This document shows positions 10,726-63,275 of a DNA stretch of 64,000 bases, piece by piece. The stretch is from contig NC_011901.1 in NCBI RefSeq assembly GCF_000021985.1, forward strand, positions 2,418,001 to 2,482,000, in the 5' to 3' direction. The notes beneath the pieces were generated by a model that was not told where the DNA came from, did not search any database, and was given only the letters and a program-made list of their open reading frames with translations. Source of the stretch: Thioalkalivibrio sulfidiphilus HL-EbGr7. GTDB lineage: Bacteria > Pseudomonadota > Gammaproteobacteria > Ectothiorhodospirales > Ectothiorhodospiraceae. The position numbers and the translations under genes are program-made. Positions within the stretch are counted from its first letter, which is position 1; every line of letters begins with the position of its first letter.

Positions 10726-10741
10726 TGTGAACCCCATCACA
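10726..10741. promoter_or_regulatory. CRP-like palindromic operator TGTGA-N6-TCACA
   Basis: TGTGAACCCCATCACA matches the CRP/Vfr/Clp-family consensus TGTGA-N6-TCACA in all ten defined positions. It lies about 100 bp upstream of the sigma-54-type promoter, the usual distance for an activator of such promoters, so PrsR could be the true ligand. A similar site occurs at 60973-60988 in the other PEP-CTERM intergenic region. Confidence 0.5.
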
Positions 10742-52473: not shown

Positions 52474-52860
52474 TCAAACCCGCTGGATCGGACCAGGATA
52501 AGCGGCGACCTGATCATCGCCGGTCAACAGGAGCATCCCTTCGGATTCAGCCTGGGCAACGAGGATCCTGTCGAACGGGTCCTTGTGGATCGGTGGAAGA
52601 TGACCGACGGCGATGGCATGGGTGCTCGTGATGGGCAACTCCTCGTAACCGTTCTCAACCAAACCACGGCGCAACAGCGCAGGATCCACATGGAAATCGG
52701 TACGACCCAGGCTACGCTTGATCGTGATCTCCCAGAGACTGGCCGCGCTGAACACCAGTCGGTTATCCGGGTTTTCGATCAGCGCCACGGCCTCCTGCGA
52801 GAGCCTGTCCGGCATAGCGGCGGCCCAGAGCAACAGATGCGTATCAAGCAGCAGGTGCAT
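52474..52860 (-). CDS. PIN-domain toxin (VapC-like)
   Basis: 128 aa. Conserved acidic residues in LLLDTHLLLWAAA (Asp6), the mid-protein SLWEITIKRSLGR (Glu) and the C-terminal DPFDRILVAQAESE. These make up the metal site of PIN RNases. ATG at 52860 lies inside the antitoxin gene (17-nt overlap), so synthesis is coupled. Confidence 0.88.
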   Translation of the reverse strand: MHLLLDTHLLLWAAAMPDRLSQEAVALIENPDNRLVFSAASLWEITIKRSLGRTDFHVDPALLRRGLVENGYEELPITSTHAIAVGHLPPIHKDPFDRILVAQAESEGMLLLTGDDQVAAYPGPIQRV

Positions 52861-53101
52861 CGTCCACCCCGAACTGGGCGAGGATCTCCTCTTCCCCCAT
52901 GCGATCAAAGTCATCCGGGACCTGGACCTGGCCCGTCAGGAAGCCAAGCCTCCTCGCTTGCCCCGCTTCAGGCGCATCGATACTGACCACCCGTGCGATG
53001 GGCTTGCCGGCCTTCGCGATGATGAAAGGCTTGCCCTTGCTGACACCGTCGAGCAGCTTCGAGAGCTGGGTTTTGGCTTCGTGAATGTTGACTGTTTCCA
53101 T
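52844..53101 (-). CDS. Phd/YefM-type antitoxin
   Basis: 85 aa. METVNIHEAKTQLSKLLDGV is a typical Phd/YefM N-terminal DNA-binding start; GKPFIIAKAGKPIARVVSID follows. The C-terminal part (DRMGEEEILAQFG) would cover the toxin. Pair with the PIN gene; probably autoregulated at the promoter, which I could not define. Confidence 0.88.
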   Translation of the reverse strand: METVNIHEAKTQLSKLLDGVSKGKPFIIAKAGKPIARVVSIDAPEAGQARRLGFLTGQVQVPDDFDRMGEEEILAQFGVDDAPAA

Positions 53102-54135: not shown

Positions 54136-55497
54136 CTACCGATTCAGATCATGCTTCTTCAACAGGTCATACAGCGTCGGTCGGCTCACCCCCAACAGCT
54201 CGGCGGCCCGGGAGATATTGCCGTCCACGATCTGCAGCGTGCGGCGCAGAGCGCGAGCCTCGGCCTCGTCGCGCACCTGGCGCAGGTTGAGCATCAACGG
54301 ATCCTCACCCTCGGGCGAAAGCTCCAGGTCCTCGACATTGATCTGATTACCCTCCGCCATGATCACCGCCCGCTTCACGCGGTTCTCCAGTTCGCGCACG
54401 TTGCCGGGCCAGGTATGGCGCTCCATGGCCTTGAGCGCCTCGGGCGTGAAACCCTTCAAAGGCCGCCCCTGCTCTCTTGCGTAGCGCTCCAGCAGGGCAC
54501 GGGCCAGGAGATGGGTGTCCCCACTCCGGTCCCGGATGGGTGGAATACTGATGGTCATCTCACTGATGCGGTAATACAGATCTTCCCTGAAACGCCCCTC
54601 CTGGATCAGCGCCGAGAGATCCTGGTGGGTCGCGCAGACCACGCGCACATCCACGGGAATCTCCTCCCGGCCACCCACCCGCTCAACCACCCGCTCCTGG
54701 AGAAATCTCAGCAGCTTGGCCTGCAAGGGCAGCGGCAGATCGCCCACCTCGTCCAGGAACAGGGTGCCGCCATCGGCGTATTCAATCTTGCCCCGGGTCT
54801 GCTTGACCGCGCCGGTGAAGGCCCCCTTCTCGTAGCCGAACAACTCGGACTCCAGCAGATTGTCCGGGATCGCCGCACAATTGATGGCCACGAAGCGGAA
54901 ATCGCTCCGGGGACTCAGGGCATGAATCGCACGGGCGATCACTTCCTTGCCGGTGCCGCTTTCGCCGAGCAACAGCGTCGTCACATCTGTCGGTGCCACC
55001 TTTTCGGTAACCCGACACACCCTGAGCATCTCCGGGCTTGCCGCAATCAGCCCCGGCAGAGGCGACACCCCCTGGTTCTCCCGAAGCCTGCGATTCTCGC
55101 GCTCCAACTCGTACAGGCGCTGGGCGCGCTTGACGATCAGGTTCAGAAGATCCGCATCGACCGGCTTCTGATAGAAATCATAGGCCCCCAGACCCACGGC
55201 CTTGACCGCGTTCTCCCGATCACTGTTGCCGGTGACCACGATGACCTTGGTATCTGGAGCAAGCGTCAGAATCTGCTCCAGCGTGGCGATCCCTTCACTG
55301 GCGCCTCCGGGGTCGGGCGGCAGCCCCAGATCAAGGGTCACCACAGACGGCTCCGATCGACGCAGTTGGGCAATGGCCTCGTCGCGCGTGGTCGCCGTCG
55401 CCACCTCGAAATCCTCGAAACACCAGCGAAGCTGCCCCAGCAACCCTGGATCATCTTCAACAACCAGCAAAGTCGGACGCGTGTCAGCCTCGGCCAT
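54136..55497 (-). CDS. prsR: PrsR, sigma-54-dependent response regulator of PEP-CTERM systems
   Basis: 453 aa. Receiver domain at residues 9-125 with acidic pocket E14-D16, phosphoacceptor D56 (VVTLDLGLPPD), T89 and K111. AAA+ domain: Walker A GESGTGKE near 178-185, the sigma-54-contacting GAFTGA at 225-230 and Walker B TLFLDEVGDL near 248. C-terminal Fis-type helix-turn-helix (ISRAAELLGVSRPTLYDLLK). The extended receiver (LGLPPDPGGASEGIATLEQI) and overall match point to the PEP-CTERM-associated family. The usual partner kinase gene prsK is not adjacent. Confidence 0.9.
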   Translation of the reverse strand: MAEADTRPTLLVVEDDPGLLGQLRWCFEDFEVATATTRDEAIAQLRRSEPSVVTLDLGLPPDPGGASEGIATLEQILTLAPDTKVIVVTGNSDRENAVKAVGLGAYDFYQKPVDADLLNLIVKRAQRLYELERENRRLRENQGVSPLPGLIAASPEMLRVCRVTEKVAPTDVTTLLLGESGTGKEVIARAIHALSPRSDFRFVAINCAAIPDNLLESELFGYEKGAFTGAVKQTRGKIEYADGGTLFLDEVGDLPLPLQAKLLRFLQERVVERVGGREEIPVDVRVVCATHQDLSALIQEGRFREDLYYRISEMTISIPPIRDRSGDTHLLARALLERYAREQGRPLKGFTPEALKAMERHTWPGNVRELENRVKRAVIMAEGNQINVEDLELSPEGEDPLMLNLRQVRDEAEARALRRTLQIVDGNISRAAELLGVSRPTLYDLLKKHDLNR

Positions 55498-59980: not shown

Positions 59981-60613
59981 TCAGCCTTGATTCCAGACCC
60001 TACGCCTGAATGCGGCGAGCAGAACCAGACCAAGCCCCATAAGCATGATCGACGCGGGCTCAGGCACACCAACAGAGGCGCCAGATCGCTCCGCGATGTA
60101 GCCCGTAACACGGGCCACATTCCCCATGTCCTCATGTGCATCATCCCACATCCAGACCATAGCCTCATGCATGGACAGCCACCTCTGCTCCTCGGACAGG
60201 CCATCACTGTCAAAATTGGAATCCCAGTTCGTGTAGTCCCAAGCCTCACCGGTCACCCAGTTCCAACCCTCATAGGCGTTTGCCGCATCCGCGTCTTGCC
60301 AGGCGCCGAGCCAGTATTTCCCGAGACGTGAATATTTATCTCCCTCAGGGGAAAACAGGCTGTTCTCGATGAAGGACTGCTCCGCTGCAGAGGTGATCGT
60401 TGCCAGATGCCAACCACCATCGATTAGAGAAACGGCCTCGTTGGCCTCACTCCAGGTACCCTGGAAATACACTACCATGTACTGGTGCAATTCACCGCTC
60501 GGGTGCTCGTCCCAGATTTCAAAAGCATGGGCAGTCCCTGACATCGCGCCGATCAGAATCGACGCAAACAGCAGGTCTCTCAATACGGCAAGTGGCTTCA
60601 TTGTCCTCTCCAT
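59981..60613 (-). CDS. C-type-lectin-like PEP-CTERM protein
   Basis: 210 aa (or 206 from the ATG at 60601; both starts have ribosome sites). Signal peptide LLFASILIGAMSGTAHA. A lectin-like domain follows: GTWSEANEAVSLIDGGWHLA, SFIENSLF, YWLGAWQD, GWNWVTGEAWDYTNW and GDD/ED-rich Ca2+-type positions. The C terminus is a PEP-CTERM signal (VPEPASIMLMGLGLVLLAAF plus RRR). Probably exported, sorted by an exosortase and binds glycans in the matrix. Sigma-54-type promoter upstream. Confidence 0.9.
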   Translation of the reverse strand: MERTMKPLAVLRDLLFASILIGAMSGTAHAFEIWDEHPSGELHQYMVVYFQGTWSEANEAVSLIDGGWHLATITSAAEQSFIENSLFSPEGDKYSRLGKYWLGAWQDADAANAYEGWNWVTGEAWDYTNWDSNFDSDGLSEEQRWLSMHEAMVWMWDDAHEDMGNVARVTGYIAERSGASVGVPEPASIMLMGLGLVLLAAFRRRVWNQG

Positions 60614-60686
60614 GACTACTCCGTTTTGTGGATTTATCGCCCCGGAGACCCACCACAGAACCCAGGGACACTTCCGTATTCATAAA

Positions 60687-60702
60687 AGCAAATATCGCGC
60701 CA
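60687..60702 (-). promoter_or_regulatory. sigma-54-type -24/-12 promoter
   Basis: On the minus strand TGGCGCGATATTTGCT matches TGGCACG-N4-TTGCW with one mismatch and correct spacing. About 75-90 bp upstream of the lectin-like PEP-CTERM gene start. Together with the promoter at 10834 it supports a PrsR/RpoN regulon. Confidence 0.75.
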
Positions 60703-60972
60703 GAATCCATATCACATTGTATACATTGGCTTTTTCCACCAGACACAAACAGCGGGCAGTATTTGAATGTAAGTTTTTGCGACATACCTCACAAAATTCA
60801 GAGAACTGGCTCTCAGCAATGAGACACACGTATCGAACCAGAATCGCACCCATGCTCAGAGCAAATACCCGAGTCCAGCCACGCAGATAGCGTCAATAAT
60901 TCCGACGGACGACATCGATTCGGCGACGACAAGAATAACGGCACGAATATCCCGACGAAGCGCAACTAACGC

Positions 60973-60988
60973 TGTGATTTGAATCACG
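60973..60988. promoter_or_regulatory. CRP-like operator TGTGA-N6-TCACG
   Basis: TGTGATTTGAATCACG matches TGTGA-N6-TCACA at nine of ten positions. Centred at about 60980; a class II promoter from it would start transcription near 61022, just ahead of the riboswitch. It resembles the site at 10726. Confidence 0.5.
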
Positions 60989-61059
60989 GAGACCAATCGC
61001 CTGATCAGCGACTATTCCTACGTGAAAGCCACTAGCCAAGGCAATTGAGATCCAGGTTT

Positions 61060-61147
61060 CTCGACAAAGGCATACCCAGCCGAAAGGCGGGGACGCAAAG
61101 CTACCGGTCTACGGGACTTTCCCACGACAGCGGGGTTACCGAAATGA
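61060..61147 (+). ncRNA. cyclic-di-GMP-I (GEMM-I) riboswitch
   Basis: Diagnostic segments in order: AGGCATACC (ligand-side G), GCCGAAAGGC hairpin with GAAA tetraloop, GGGACGCAAAGC, a central CCGG...-containing stem, and AGCGGGGTTACCGA with the conserved cytosine of the ligand site. This matches the aptamer consensus of class I c-di-GMP riboswitches closely. It precedes the fibronectin-like lipoprotein gene. Whether c-di-GMP turns expression on or off cannot be read from the sequence. Confidence 0.93.
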
Positions 61148-61365
61148 AACAAATTGTTACAGAACAAACATGCGCGTCAGTCGGACAACGAGCGAATCGC
61201 TCCGGGCAAGAGCACATTCCGACCAATGACTCACGACCCGCTCGGCAGGACGCATCCCAAAATTTCACAAGCAACCCGGGAACAGCTCATCCAGGGCCTT
61301 TCAGCTCAGCCAAAGTGCATGAGCCCACCCTCTTTTGGACACAAAATACGTGTCAGCAGGTGAAA

Positions 61366-61803
61366 ATGAAGCATCGCAGCGTGTTGAGTATACTGGGGAC
61401 ATCAGCACTGGCCATCGCACTTCTCTCCGGATGCGACGCAGGAAACACAAGCAGCAGTAGCGGGAACAGTTCCACCGGAAGCCAGACAACATCCCAGTGG
61501 TACATGGCAGTACGCGCGGTCGACGAAGAGGGTCAACAAGGACCTCTTTCCAATGAGGCATCTGGCCAATTATCTCCTGGTCAGACAGTCACCCTGGCTT
61601 GGAACGCCCCTAATACTTCACTGGATGGCACATGCACCACCGTAGAAGGTTACATCGTGGAAATGGGGCGCAATTCAGGCAGCTATTCGCATGCCTCAGT
61701 CGTGAACACCGGTTACATTGGATTTTATTGTTCGGCAACCGGCTCTAACTATTGCGGAAGCACCTATTCATGCGAAGTGGCCGTAACCATCCCGAACAGC
61801 TGA
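61366..61803 (+). CDS. secreted lipoprotein with fibronectin-type III-like segments
   Basis: 145 aa. Signal peptide and lipobox LSILGTSALAIALLSGC (Cys24) followed by a Ser/Gly linker. The segment QWYMAVRAVDEEGQQGPLSN looks like the C-terminal strands of a fibronectin III domain; VTLAWNAPNTSLDGTC and VEGYIVEMGRNSGSY look like the N-terminal strands of another. Several cysteines near the end (YCSATGSNYCGSTYSC). I start at the ATG at 61366; an in-frame ATG at 61144 directly after the riboswitch would add a non-secretory leader. Confidence 0.75.
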   Translation: MKHRSVLSILGTSALAIALLSGCDAGNTSSSSGNSSTGSQTTSQWYMAVRAVDEEGQQGPLSNEASGQLSPGQTVTLAWNAPNTSLDGTCTTVEGYIVEMGRNSGSYSHASVVNTGYIGFYCSATGSNYCGSTYSCEVAVTIPNS

Positions 61804-61880
61804 ACAGGCTTATTAGGGAGCCCTTCAGACACTCTGCGCGCCGCAGCTGCATTCAGCAGATTTTAAGAGGTCACTTGGAC

Positions 61881-63275
61881 ATGTATCGCTTACTTATCAG
61901 CATCGCTCTTCTACTTCTTCTCTCGACACCCGCTCTATCAAAGACGCTCTACGTGGACGGCACGAGAGGCAATGACAATGTCTCGTATCAAGACAACAGC
62001 GCCGAAATGCCCTGGCGGACGATTGGGCGTGCGGCGTGGGGAAGCACAAATCGAAGCTCGCCAAATCCCTCCGAGGCCGCTCGCGCAGGTGATACGGTTA
62101 TCATCAGGGCAGGCACCTATTCCACTACCGGTACAGGTGTCCGCTACGACCCTGCCTACAATCCAGCGAATAGCGGAACAGCCTCGAACCCGATTGTCTT
62201 CCAGGCAGAAGGCACTGTGATCTTGACTCAAACCGGACGGGGACCGCTGATTGGTGCTAACGGTAATTATGGAGCCAGAGACTACATCTCCTGGAAAGGA
62301 TTCACGATTAACGAAATCGATGCACTATCAACATCCGATACCGGGCCAGTTGTGTTGTGGTCAACGACTGGCTCTACGATCGAAGATTGTGTCATCAATG
62401 GATACGACAATGGCGTGAACGGAGATAATCACAATGGAATCCGTTTGGAAAATACCACCAACGTCGTGCTTAGGAACAATCGCATATTCAATGTCCTAAA
62501 CTTCGGCAACGTACACCACAATGGCGCAGGTATAATGGCTTATTTCAGCCGAGGCGCGCTGATCGAAAACAATGAAATCTACGACTCTGGCGCTGGAATT
62601 TTCGTAAAAGGCGGTGATAACCGAGACTTTACAATACGCAATAATCTGTTACGCAACAATGGCAAAGGTATACTCACCATGTACACCCATCCTGATGGTG
62701 AGCACCGCATCCATCAGAACATTGCCATCAATAACGGAAGCGGCATATCCATAGAACTCAATTCCAAGAATGTTAGCGTGGTCAACAACACGCTAGTTGG
62801 TAACGGAAATGGACTCCGGATCGGATGGTGTGGCGACACCATGAGTAATGTGAGATTTAGAAACAACATCATCGCACATTCTCAAACAGAGGGTTTTTCT
62901 GCAGGAGAATGTGGTTCGACGAACCCCTTCAATATCGACCACAATATCTATCACAACAATCCGCGTGGTTGGAGCATAGCCGGCACACGATACACCAGCA
63001 TAGAAGCATGGCGCGCAGCACTCGGCGGCAAAGAACTAAGCAGCTTTACAAGCGATCCGCGATTTCAGGACATAAGTACGTTGAATTACCGTCTCCAATC
63101 CAGTTCTCCCGCATTTGGAGCAGGCATCGATGTTCTGGACCTCAATAACAACAGTATCACATCCGATGCAATTACAATTGGCGCATATATTACGGGAACA
63201 GAATCCATTGGACTCCTGAGCGGGACAGCTCCCGCCAGTGCACCAAGCGCGCCGCAATCACTAACGTTGCGGTGA
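61881..63275 (+). CDS. secreted right-handed parallel beta-helix protein
   Basis: 464 aa, signal peptide LLISIALLLLLSTPALS, then KTLYVDGTRGNDN and regular beta-helix rungs rich in Asn/Gly/Ile (GIRLENTTNVVLRNNRIFNV, GIMAYFSRGALIENNEIYDS, GISIELNSKNVSVVNNTLVG), closing with the DPRFQD...YRLQSSSPAFGAG cap shared with the protein at 56026. The C terminus APSAPQSLTLR resembles the first strand of a fibronectin III domain that is then cut short. ATG at 61881 with AAGAGG upstream. Probably co-transcribed with the lipoprotein (77-nt gap). Confidence 0.83.
   Translation: MYRLLISIALLLLLSTPALSKTLYVDGTRGNDNVSYQDNSAEMPWRTIGRAAWGSTNRSSPNPSEAARAGDTVIIRAGTYSTTGTGVRYDPAYNPANSGTASNPIVFQAEGTVILTQTGRGPLIGANGNYGARDYISWKGFTINEIDALSTSDTGPVVLWSTTGSTIEDCVINGYDNGVNGDNHNGIRLENTTNVVLRNNRIFNVLNFGNVHHNGAGIMAYFSRGALIENNEIYDSGAGIFVKGGDNRDFTIRNNLLRNNGKGILTMYTHPDGEHRIHQNIAINNGSGISIELNSKNVSVVNNTLVGNGNGLRIGWCGDTMSNVRFRNNIIAHSQTEGFSAGECGSTNPFNIDHNIYHNNPRGWSIAGTRYTSIEAWRAALGGKELSSFTSDPRFQDISTLNYRLQSSSPAFGAGIDVLDLNNNSITSDAITIGAYITGTESIGLLSGTAPASAPSAPQSLTLR

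Follow-up and report, generated by a model that had tools for sequence, protein, structure and literature searches.

The window (the whole stretch of 64,000 nucleotides that was analysed, positions 2418001–2482000 of the single-contig genome G000, 3,464,554 bases) appears to hold two back-to-back promoters in one intergenic region, a reading to which we give a probability of roughly 0.6. Leftward, a PrsR/sigma-54 promoter would serve a PEP-CTERM gene; rightward, cAMP-CRP would drive a transcript on which a c-di-GMP aptamer would occlude the ribosome site. More tentatively, at a little under even odds, we propose that a CRP box followed by a c-di-GMP-I aptamer recurs across Gammaproteobacteria as a two-messenger module, in which CRP would govern transcription and c-di-GMP would gate the message. 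In Thioalkalivibrio the CRP input would also reach the PrsR/sigma-54 promoters of PEP-CTERM genes, giving a three-signal matrix regulon in which the aptamer serves as its own platform, with the Shine-Dalgarno in helix P3 and the start codon at its edge.

The control elements named in the preliminary description of this region were all located in 60614–61365. Profile matches around it in the 64-kb window include prsR, glycosyltransferases and one methyltransferase, and the locus is therefore read as an exopolysaccharide/exosortase locus. PrsR, the PEP-CTERM-box response regulator and sigma-54 activator, is encoded at 54136–55497 on the − strand (TIGR02915, 737.9 bits; cut-off 502.6). The genome also encodes RpoN, outside the window (495.4 bits), a CRP ortholog (332.8 bits; cut-off 266) and 48 GGDEF matches.

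A putative PrsR/sigma-54 promoter leftward

The leftward gene (59981–60613, −) encodes a 210-aa PEP-CTERM protein (TIGR02595, 22.1 bits, cut-off 16; PF07589) with a C-type-lectin-like ectodomain. No Pfam lectin match was found in this protein at 0.01. The best PDB sequence match of the ectodomain is the C-type lectin Reg3-alpha (E = 1.2e-4), and the label "lectin-like" given to the gene earlier is upheld because the ectodomain matches solved C-type lectins.

Upstream of this gene lies a sigma-54 promoter element, TGGCGCG-N4-TTGCT (TGGCGCGATATTTGCT; 60687–60702, −), 73 nt before the start codon, which fits the search pattern without mismatch. Taken by itself, this pattern lacks significance in the window, with 2 matches against 3.92 expected when one mismatch is allowed. 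A further 65 nt upstream there is a 17-nt PrsR-type box, TGTCG-N6-YTTACA (TGTCGCAAAAACTTACA; 60768–60784, −). The window contains a single composite of PrsR box and sigma-54 element and none of 100 shuffles contains one, and box, spacer and GG/GC sigma-54 motif have the layout of PrsR/sigma-54 promoters (17-nt box, 32–92 nt spacer). Across four genomes of the genus there are five such composites (2 in G000, 1 in G003, 2 in G004 and 0 in G002), all five upstream of PEP-CTERM genes, while the backward-pattern control gives 0. G002 has neither a composite nor a PEP-CTERM match. An exact PrsR box is present at five of the seven PEP-CTERM genes found in the genus genomes; the exceptions are one gene of the window, which has a TTAACA variant, and that on G003 contig C20, which has no box.

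The layout agrees with what the 2006 paper, in the part on its cis-element, gives for PEP-CTERM genes: a 17-nt motif ending TTTACA, a spacer (mean 62.8 nt, 65 here) and a sigma-54 motif at a mean of 71 nt from the start codon (73 here) (Haft 2006, PMC1569441). The PrsR/sigma-54 cis-element described for pepA of Aquincola (PMC9850573) has the same layout. Compared with these elements, as set out in the passages cited, the box here ends CTTACA rather than TTTACA, and a CRP-like site overlaps it. The sigma-54-type promoter and the PrsR control element proposed earlier are both supported. Phosphorylated PrsR would bind the box at 60768–60784 and activate sigma-54 polymerase at 60687–60702, and the lectin-like PEP-CTERM gene would be transcribed. 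What signals to PrsK was described as obscure when the protein was named (PMC1569441).

At the other PEP-CTERM gene of the window (region 10726–10741 and 11021 onward), a CRP site that agrees fully with the consensus stops 1 nt short of a degenerate PrsR box (TGTCGGGCCGATTAACA).

CRP-like sites upstream of PEP-CTERM genes and aptamers

The CRP consensus is TGTGA-N6-TCACA, and a CRP-like site was defined as a match with at most one mismatch. Site A (TGCGACATACCTCACA, 60778–60793) overlaps the PrsR-type box. Site B (TGTGATTTGAATCACG, 60973–60988), on the rightward side, has one mismatch, is centred 78 nt before the aptamer and has a counterpart in G004 (locus L021). The 3.46 Mb of G000 contain 36 such sites, against 9 for a backward control. 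Six of the 36 precede PEP-CTERM genes (3 of 3 genes; sites at 2428726, 2478778 and 1040174) or aptamers (3 of 4; 2478973, 1219986 and 3208759). For regions chosen after the fact, this excess has a Poisson probability of 3e-13, or 9e-8 if all sites were confined to 12% of the genome. Thus the rightward CRP-like site of the preliminary description is supported by the genome-wide distribution as well as by its own sequence. The relatives also have such sites, 34 in G004 and 42 in G003. Those of G004 include sites at both of its PEP-CTERM genes and at two of its four aptamers; those of G003 include sites at all three aptamers and at neither of the two PEP-CTERM genes. Placement differs among the G000 sites: the one at 1040174 is downstream of the sigma-54 element and ahead of the start codon, and that at 3208759 overlaps the start of the aptamer, so CRP-like sites need not all act alike.

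Aptamers were compared within and beyond the genus. Aptamers number four in G000, four in G004, three in G003, one in G002 and none in G001, and a class-wide sample of Gammaproteobacteria has them in 67 of 369 genomes. The locus set comprises 49 aptamer loci (21 first loci and 28 new; 12 from the genus and 37 from elsewhere); the 28 added loci are one high-scoring match per genome rather than a random draw, and the set leaves out further class-wide matches that had no locus. A CRP-like site lies within 300 nt upstream of the aptamer at 8 of the 12 genus loci and 7 of the 37 others, whereas 29 permuted palindromes hit a mean of 0.03 and 0.28 loci, respectively (maximum 1 and 3). The 44,860 nt at 400–1400 nt upstream of aptamers contain no CRP-like site. 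Nine of 16 sites are centred at −44 to −78 from the aptamer; outside this zone are those of L005, L007, L012, L018, L023 and L068, and the second of L006.

Class II CRP promoters have 36–37 nt from the site start to the −10 element. A candidate −10 hexamer, GACTAT (61010–61015, +), which is weak (3 of 6 positions), begins 37 nt from the start of site B. The spacing is also 37 nt in L021 and L020 and 36 nt in L024, so that in the four genus loci of the −44 to −78 zone a hexamer resembling a −10 element at 3 to 5 of its 6 positions begins 36–37 nt after the site start. Among the five non-genus loci the best hexamer is at 30–32 nt in four and at 37 nt in one, so these loci do not as a group display class II geometry. 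cAMP-CRP would bind near 60980 and activate transcription in class II geometry, with a start near 61022. A sigma-70 promoter was rejected for the rightward side, the sole scan match being on the − strand.

The sites might instead be bound by another protein of the CRP/FNR family. In favor of this, G000 has six matches to the CRP model with only one over the cut-off; against it, the motif is the CRP consensus and the genome has a CRP ortholog at 332.8 bits. We regard such a binder as quite improbable and keep cAMP-CRP as the proposed regulator. Should transcripts headed by c-di-GMP riboswitches commonly be driven by CRP, two widely used second messengers of bacteria would meet on single mRNAs in many species.

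A predicted c-di-GMP aptamer with a possible start codon at its edge

The rightward class I c-di-GMP aptamer of the preliminary description is recovered at 61059–61143 (+) with 70.7 bits to RF01051, twice the gathering cut-off of 35. It also exceeds the cut-off of RF03167, c-di-GMP-I-GGC (62.2 bits against 59, at 61060–61144), below which two of the four G000 aptamers fall. "GGC" in that name refers to pocket bases. The GGC variant was rejected, as the window has GACGC[A]AA against GACGC[G]AA in the model consensus, and the 11 other genus aptamers also have A in place of this G. Because of the A at the differing position, the window RNA is treated as a parent-class c-di-GMP-I aptamer, with c-di-GMP as its presumed ligand. 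Four loci of genome G047 (L022, L025, L027 and L028) have diverged aptamers in which CCAAACC and ACGGAAA replace GCAAACC and ACGCAAA, which looks like a compensated pair change.

An in-frame ATG stands at the aptamer end, at 61144. The proposed gene (61144–61803, +) encodes a 219-aa pre-lipoprotein with a long N-terminal extension, and a likely Shine-Dalgarno, GGGG (61132–61135, +), lies 8 nt before the ATG, within the strand that forms the 3′ side of helix P3 of the aptamer. The same lipoprotein has an alternative start at an internal ATG (MKHRSVLSILGTSALAIALLSGC; 61366–61803, +), where AGGT stands 4 nt before the codon and an ideal lipoprotein signal comes after it, so either start is possible for the window gene. 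The gene may thus begin 74 codons farther upstream, at 61144 instead of 61366. The right-hand intergenic limit given previously, 61365, may fall within coding sequence.

The position of this ATG recurs in the genus. At 9 of the 12 genus loci an ATG whose offset from the aptamer end is 0 or +1 shares the frame of a secreted protein or lipoprotein (G000 4/4, G004 4/4, G003 1/3; the G000 and G004 counts are not independent because their loci are orthologous), and these loci have GGGG or GGAG 8–9 nt before the ATG, in the 3′ strand of P3. L005 and L013 have no other start codon ahead of the signal peptide, and L007 and L023 have none after codon 5 ahead of the signal-peptide core. Later in-frame GTGs are found in L020 at codons 32, 54 and 61, all without a Shine-Dalgarno, and later candidates are present in L008 and L026 too. 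Substitutions in the extension, counted at first, second and third codon positions, lean to the third in L007/L023 (6/1/9) and L005/L013 (3/2/11), and here the extension behaves as expected of coding DNA; L005/L020 give 23/19/41. The diverged pairs show little or no lean, namely the window locus L006 with L021 (34/32/40) and L008 with L026 (28/31/33).

Outside the genus, 4 of 37 loci have an ATG-led 60-aa frame within −6 to +8 of the end of the aptamer and 33 have none; three of these 33 have less than 180 nt downstream and could not reveal one. Among the four, L076 (340 aa) fits the layout and L062 is ambiguous. L015 was rejected as not having the same layout, its edge frame differing from that of its FN3 lipoprotein, and L018 was rejected as its edge frame opens only 69 aa. 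The L076 frame begins with ATGATG at the aptamer edge and looks sulfotransferase-like by eye.

A start codon touching the 3′ end of the aptamer, with the Shine-Dalgarno in P3, implies that the ligand should block ribosome loading. The 5′ leader would then consist of the c-di-GMP class I aptamer with no separate expression platform, and c-di-GMP binding would directly turn the gene OFF. Ligand-free folding gives a mixed picture: in the window RNA the GGGG is mostly paired (unpaired 0.05, 0.04, 0.29 and 0.43), but in L007 and L008 part of the GGAG is open. A terminator was rejected as expression platform, as none was found in 60600–61900.

The opposite sign would follow if the aptamer were an ON switch with a longer platform, translation starting at 61366 and the 222 nt from aptamer to start rearranging upon ligand binding. 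The AGGT and ideal lipoprotein signal at 61366 fit such a switch, as do the 33 of 37 non-genus loci without an edge frame (including the three too short to show one), and the riboswitch Vc2 of Vibrio cholerae is described, in the text cited, as a positive regulator of a reporter (PMC4545359). The OFF sign is uncertain on account of Vc2. The ON switch is at odds with the 9 of 12 genus loci whose in-frame ATG has an offset of 0 or +1, with L005, L013, L007 and L023, in which no later start precedes the signal peptide, and with the lack of a terminator-like site in 60600–61900. We consider it unlikely, and favor direct occlusion of the ribosome site by the ligand-bound aptamer.

The divergent arrangement and the link between its two sides

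The preliminary description joined both sides in one control region. The leftward elements (60687–60793) and the rightward elements (60973–61143) do not overlap. In G004, the orthologous aptamer-lipoprotein gene lies about 460 bp from the prsR orthologue (neighbour named by eye), with no gene of 110 aa between them, and the gene downstream of the lipoprotein is aldo/keto reductase-like by eye rather than a beta-helix gene. The G004 contig with this riboswitch gene has no PEP-CTERM match; the PEP-CTERM matches of G004 are on contigs 11 and 13, and these two genes appear to be orthologues of the two remaining PEP-CTERM genes of G000. The divergent pair is therefore a local arrangement, absent from the one relative able to test it (1 of 1), and a joint control region as a conserved unit is not borne out.

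It is an even call whether the two genes are simply fortuitous neighbors, a lineage-specific PEP-CTERM gene having landed by a riboswitch gene so that the 750 bp form no functional unit. The prsR neighbor without a PEP-CTERM gene on that stretch of G004, and the apparent orthology of both G004 PEP-CTERM genes to other genes of G000, speak for this; it is compatible with the two-promoter anatomy and denies joint control only. Against it, CRP-like sites occur to the left and to the right alike and recur at PEP-CTERM and riboswitch genes not linked to this locus, which points to a shared regulon instead of a joint region. Judged from these sites, cAMP-CRP is more likely than the shared 750 bp to be what links the two sides.

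Comparison with known systems

Each element of the region is separately of a known kind. In V. cholerae, CRP acts directly at gbpA, upstream of the putative c-di-GMP riboswitch Vc1, and the c-di-GMP effect is independent of Vc1, according to the gbpA results cited (PMC4545359). That leader resembles the rightward side here in having a CRP site, then a c-di-GMP aptamer and then a gene for a secreted surface-binding protein. It differs in that no PEP-CTERM/PrsR side appears in the account cited, and its native ribosome-binding site is outside the deleted riboswitch segment, whereas the likely Shine-Dalgarno here is inside the aptamer. In Methylophaga nitratireducenticrescens GP59 (2025), c-di-GMP riboswitches 4–7 are reported, in the section cited, by one VPLPA-CTERM and three PEP-CTERM genes (PMC12530212). 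The exopolysaccharide/PEP-CTERM neighborhood is alike; in GP59, however, the riboswitches flank the PEP-CTERM genes themselves, and the section cited gives no anatomy of their promoters. In Geobacter, a GEMM riboswitch is placed upstream of the FN3-domain protein KN400_1971 in the excerpt cited (PMC13194489), which resembles the cyclic-dinucleotide riboswitch here with its putatively FN3-type surface protein, but the domain here seems circularly permuted and, in the searches run, has strong matches in G000 and G004 only.

The earlier suggestion that such a coupling had not been described thus fails in part, in view of the cited parts of these papers, for the adjacency of c-di-GMP riboswitches and PEP-CTERM genes (PMC12530212) and for CRP at gbpA (PMC4545359). 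What looks new, as far as the open-licence literature searched goes, is that CRP-like sites recur ahead of c-di-GMP-I aptamers and of PEP-CTERM genes and, among the matches listed, that a start codon lies at the aptamer edge. No paper pairing PEP-CTERM with the cAMP receptor protein was found in the open-licence literature. The elements described here offer a regulatory map for exosortase (PEP-CTERM) matrix systems.

Genes downstream of the aptamers

Both a lipoprotein gene and a beta-helix gene are present on the rightward side, as described previously. The latter (61881–63275, +) encodes a secreted right-handed beta-helix protein (PF13229, 60.5 bits) and is possibly co-transcribed with the lipoprotein gene, no terminator-like site having been found between the two. 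In profile scans neither carries a PEP-CTERM signal at E 0.01.

The last ~100 aa of the lipoprotein mark it as one of a family of six, three from G000 and three from G004, and each of the six is headed by an aptamer. Weak partial matches occur in 2 further genomes among 116 searched. In a scanned contig collection from which the genome of the window may be missing, the domain was confirmed in two records only, each of them from Thioalkalivibrio sulfidiphilus ALJ17. A described domain family was rejected, as profile searches gave no Pfam or NCBIfam match at 0.01 and no PDB match at E 5. The AlphaFold model of the domain is all-beta (pLDDT 85.8), and fold searches turned up nothing at E 0.001 with Foldseek or at Z of at least 8 with VIA-align; both methods are sequential, and a circular permutation could escape them. 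The L015 locus, from another genus of the family, has a canonical FN3 lipoprotein that is itself downstream of an aptamer. The halves of the window domain (61495–61803) match this FN3 with their order exchanged, as none of 500 shuffles did for either half, which suggests that the domain is a circularly permuted FN3. Its match to fn3_4 is weak, at E = 0.15, and E = 0.033 after rotation. Rotation as a way to regain an FN3 match was set aside, since it reached only this value and in one of the two rotated sequences; the L010 domain has no fn3_4 match, rotated or not.

Tandem aptamer-headed paralogues of the window lipoprotein lie 1.4 kb apart at 1219697–1221167 of G000 contig C1 (L010 8941–11344). 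Long Pro-Glu repeats precede the domain in these proteins, and the same pair is found on G004 contig C37. A second aptamer-headed family, seen at L005 (1149–1499, −), L013 and L020, consists of small secreted proteins (116–147 aa) with an edge start codon; residues 1–111 of the 116 in L005 have no Pfam match at E 1. Elsewhere in the window, 52474–53101 (−) holds a toxin-antitoxin-like pair that we take, from its sequence, to be of VapBC type, and its PIN-like protein is also present in G004 (L036 2750–3136).
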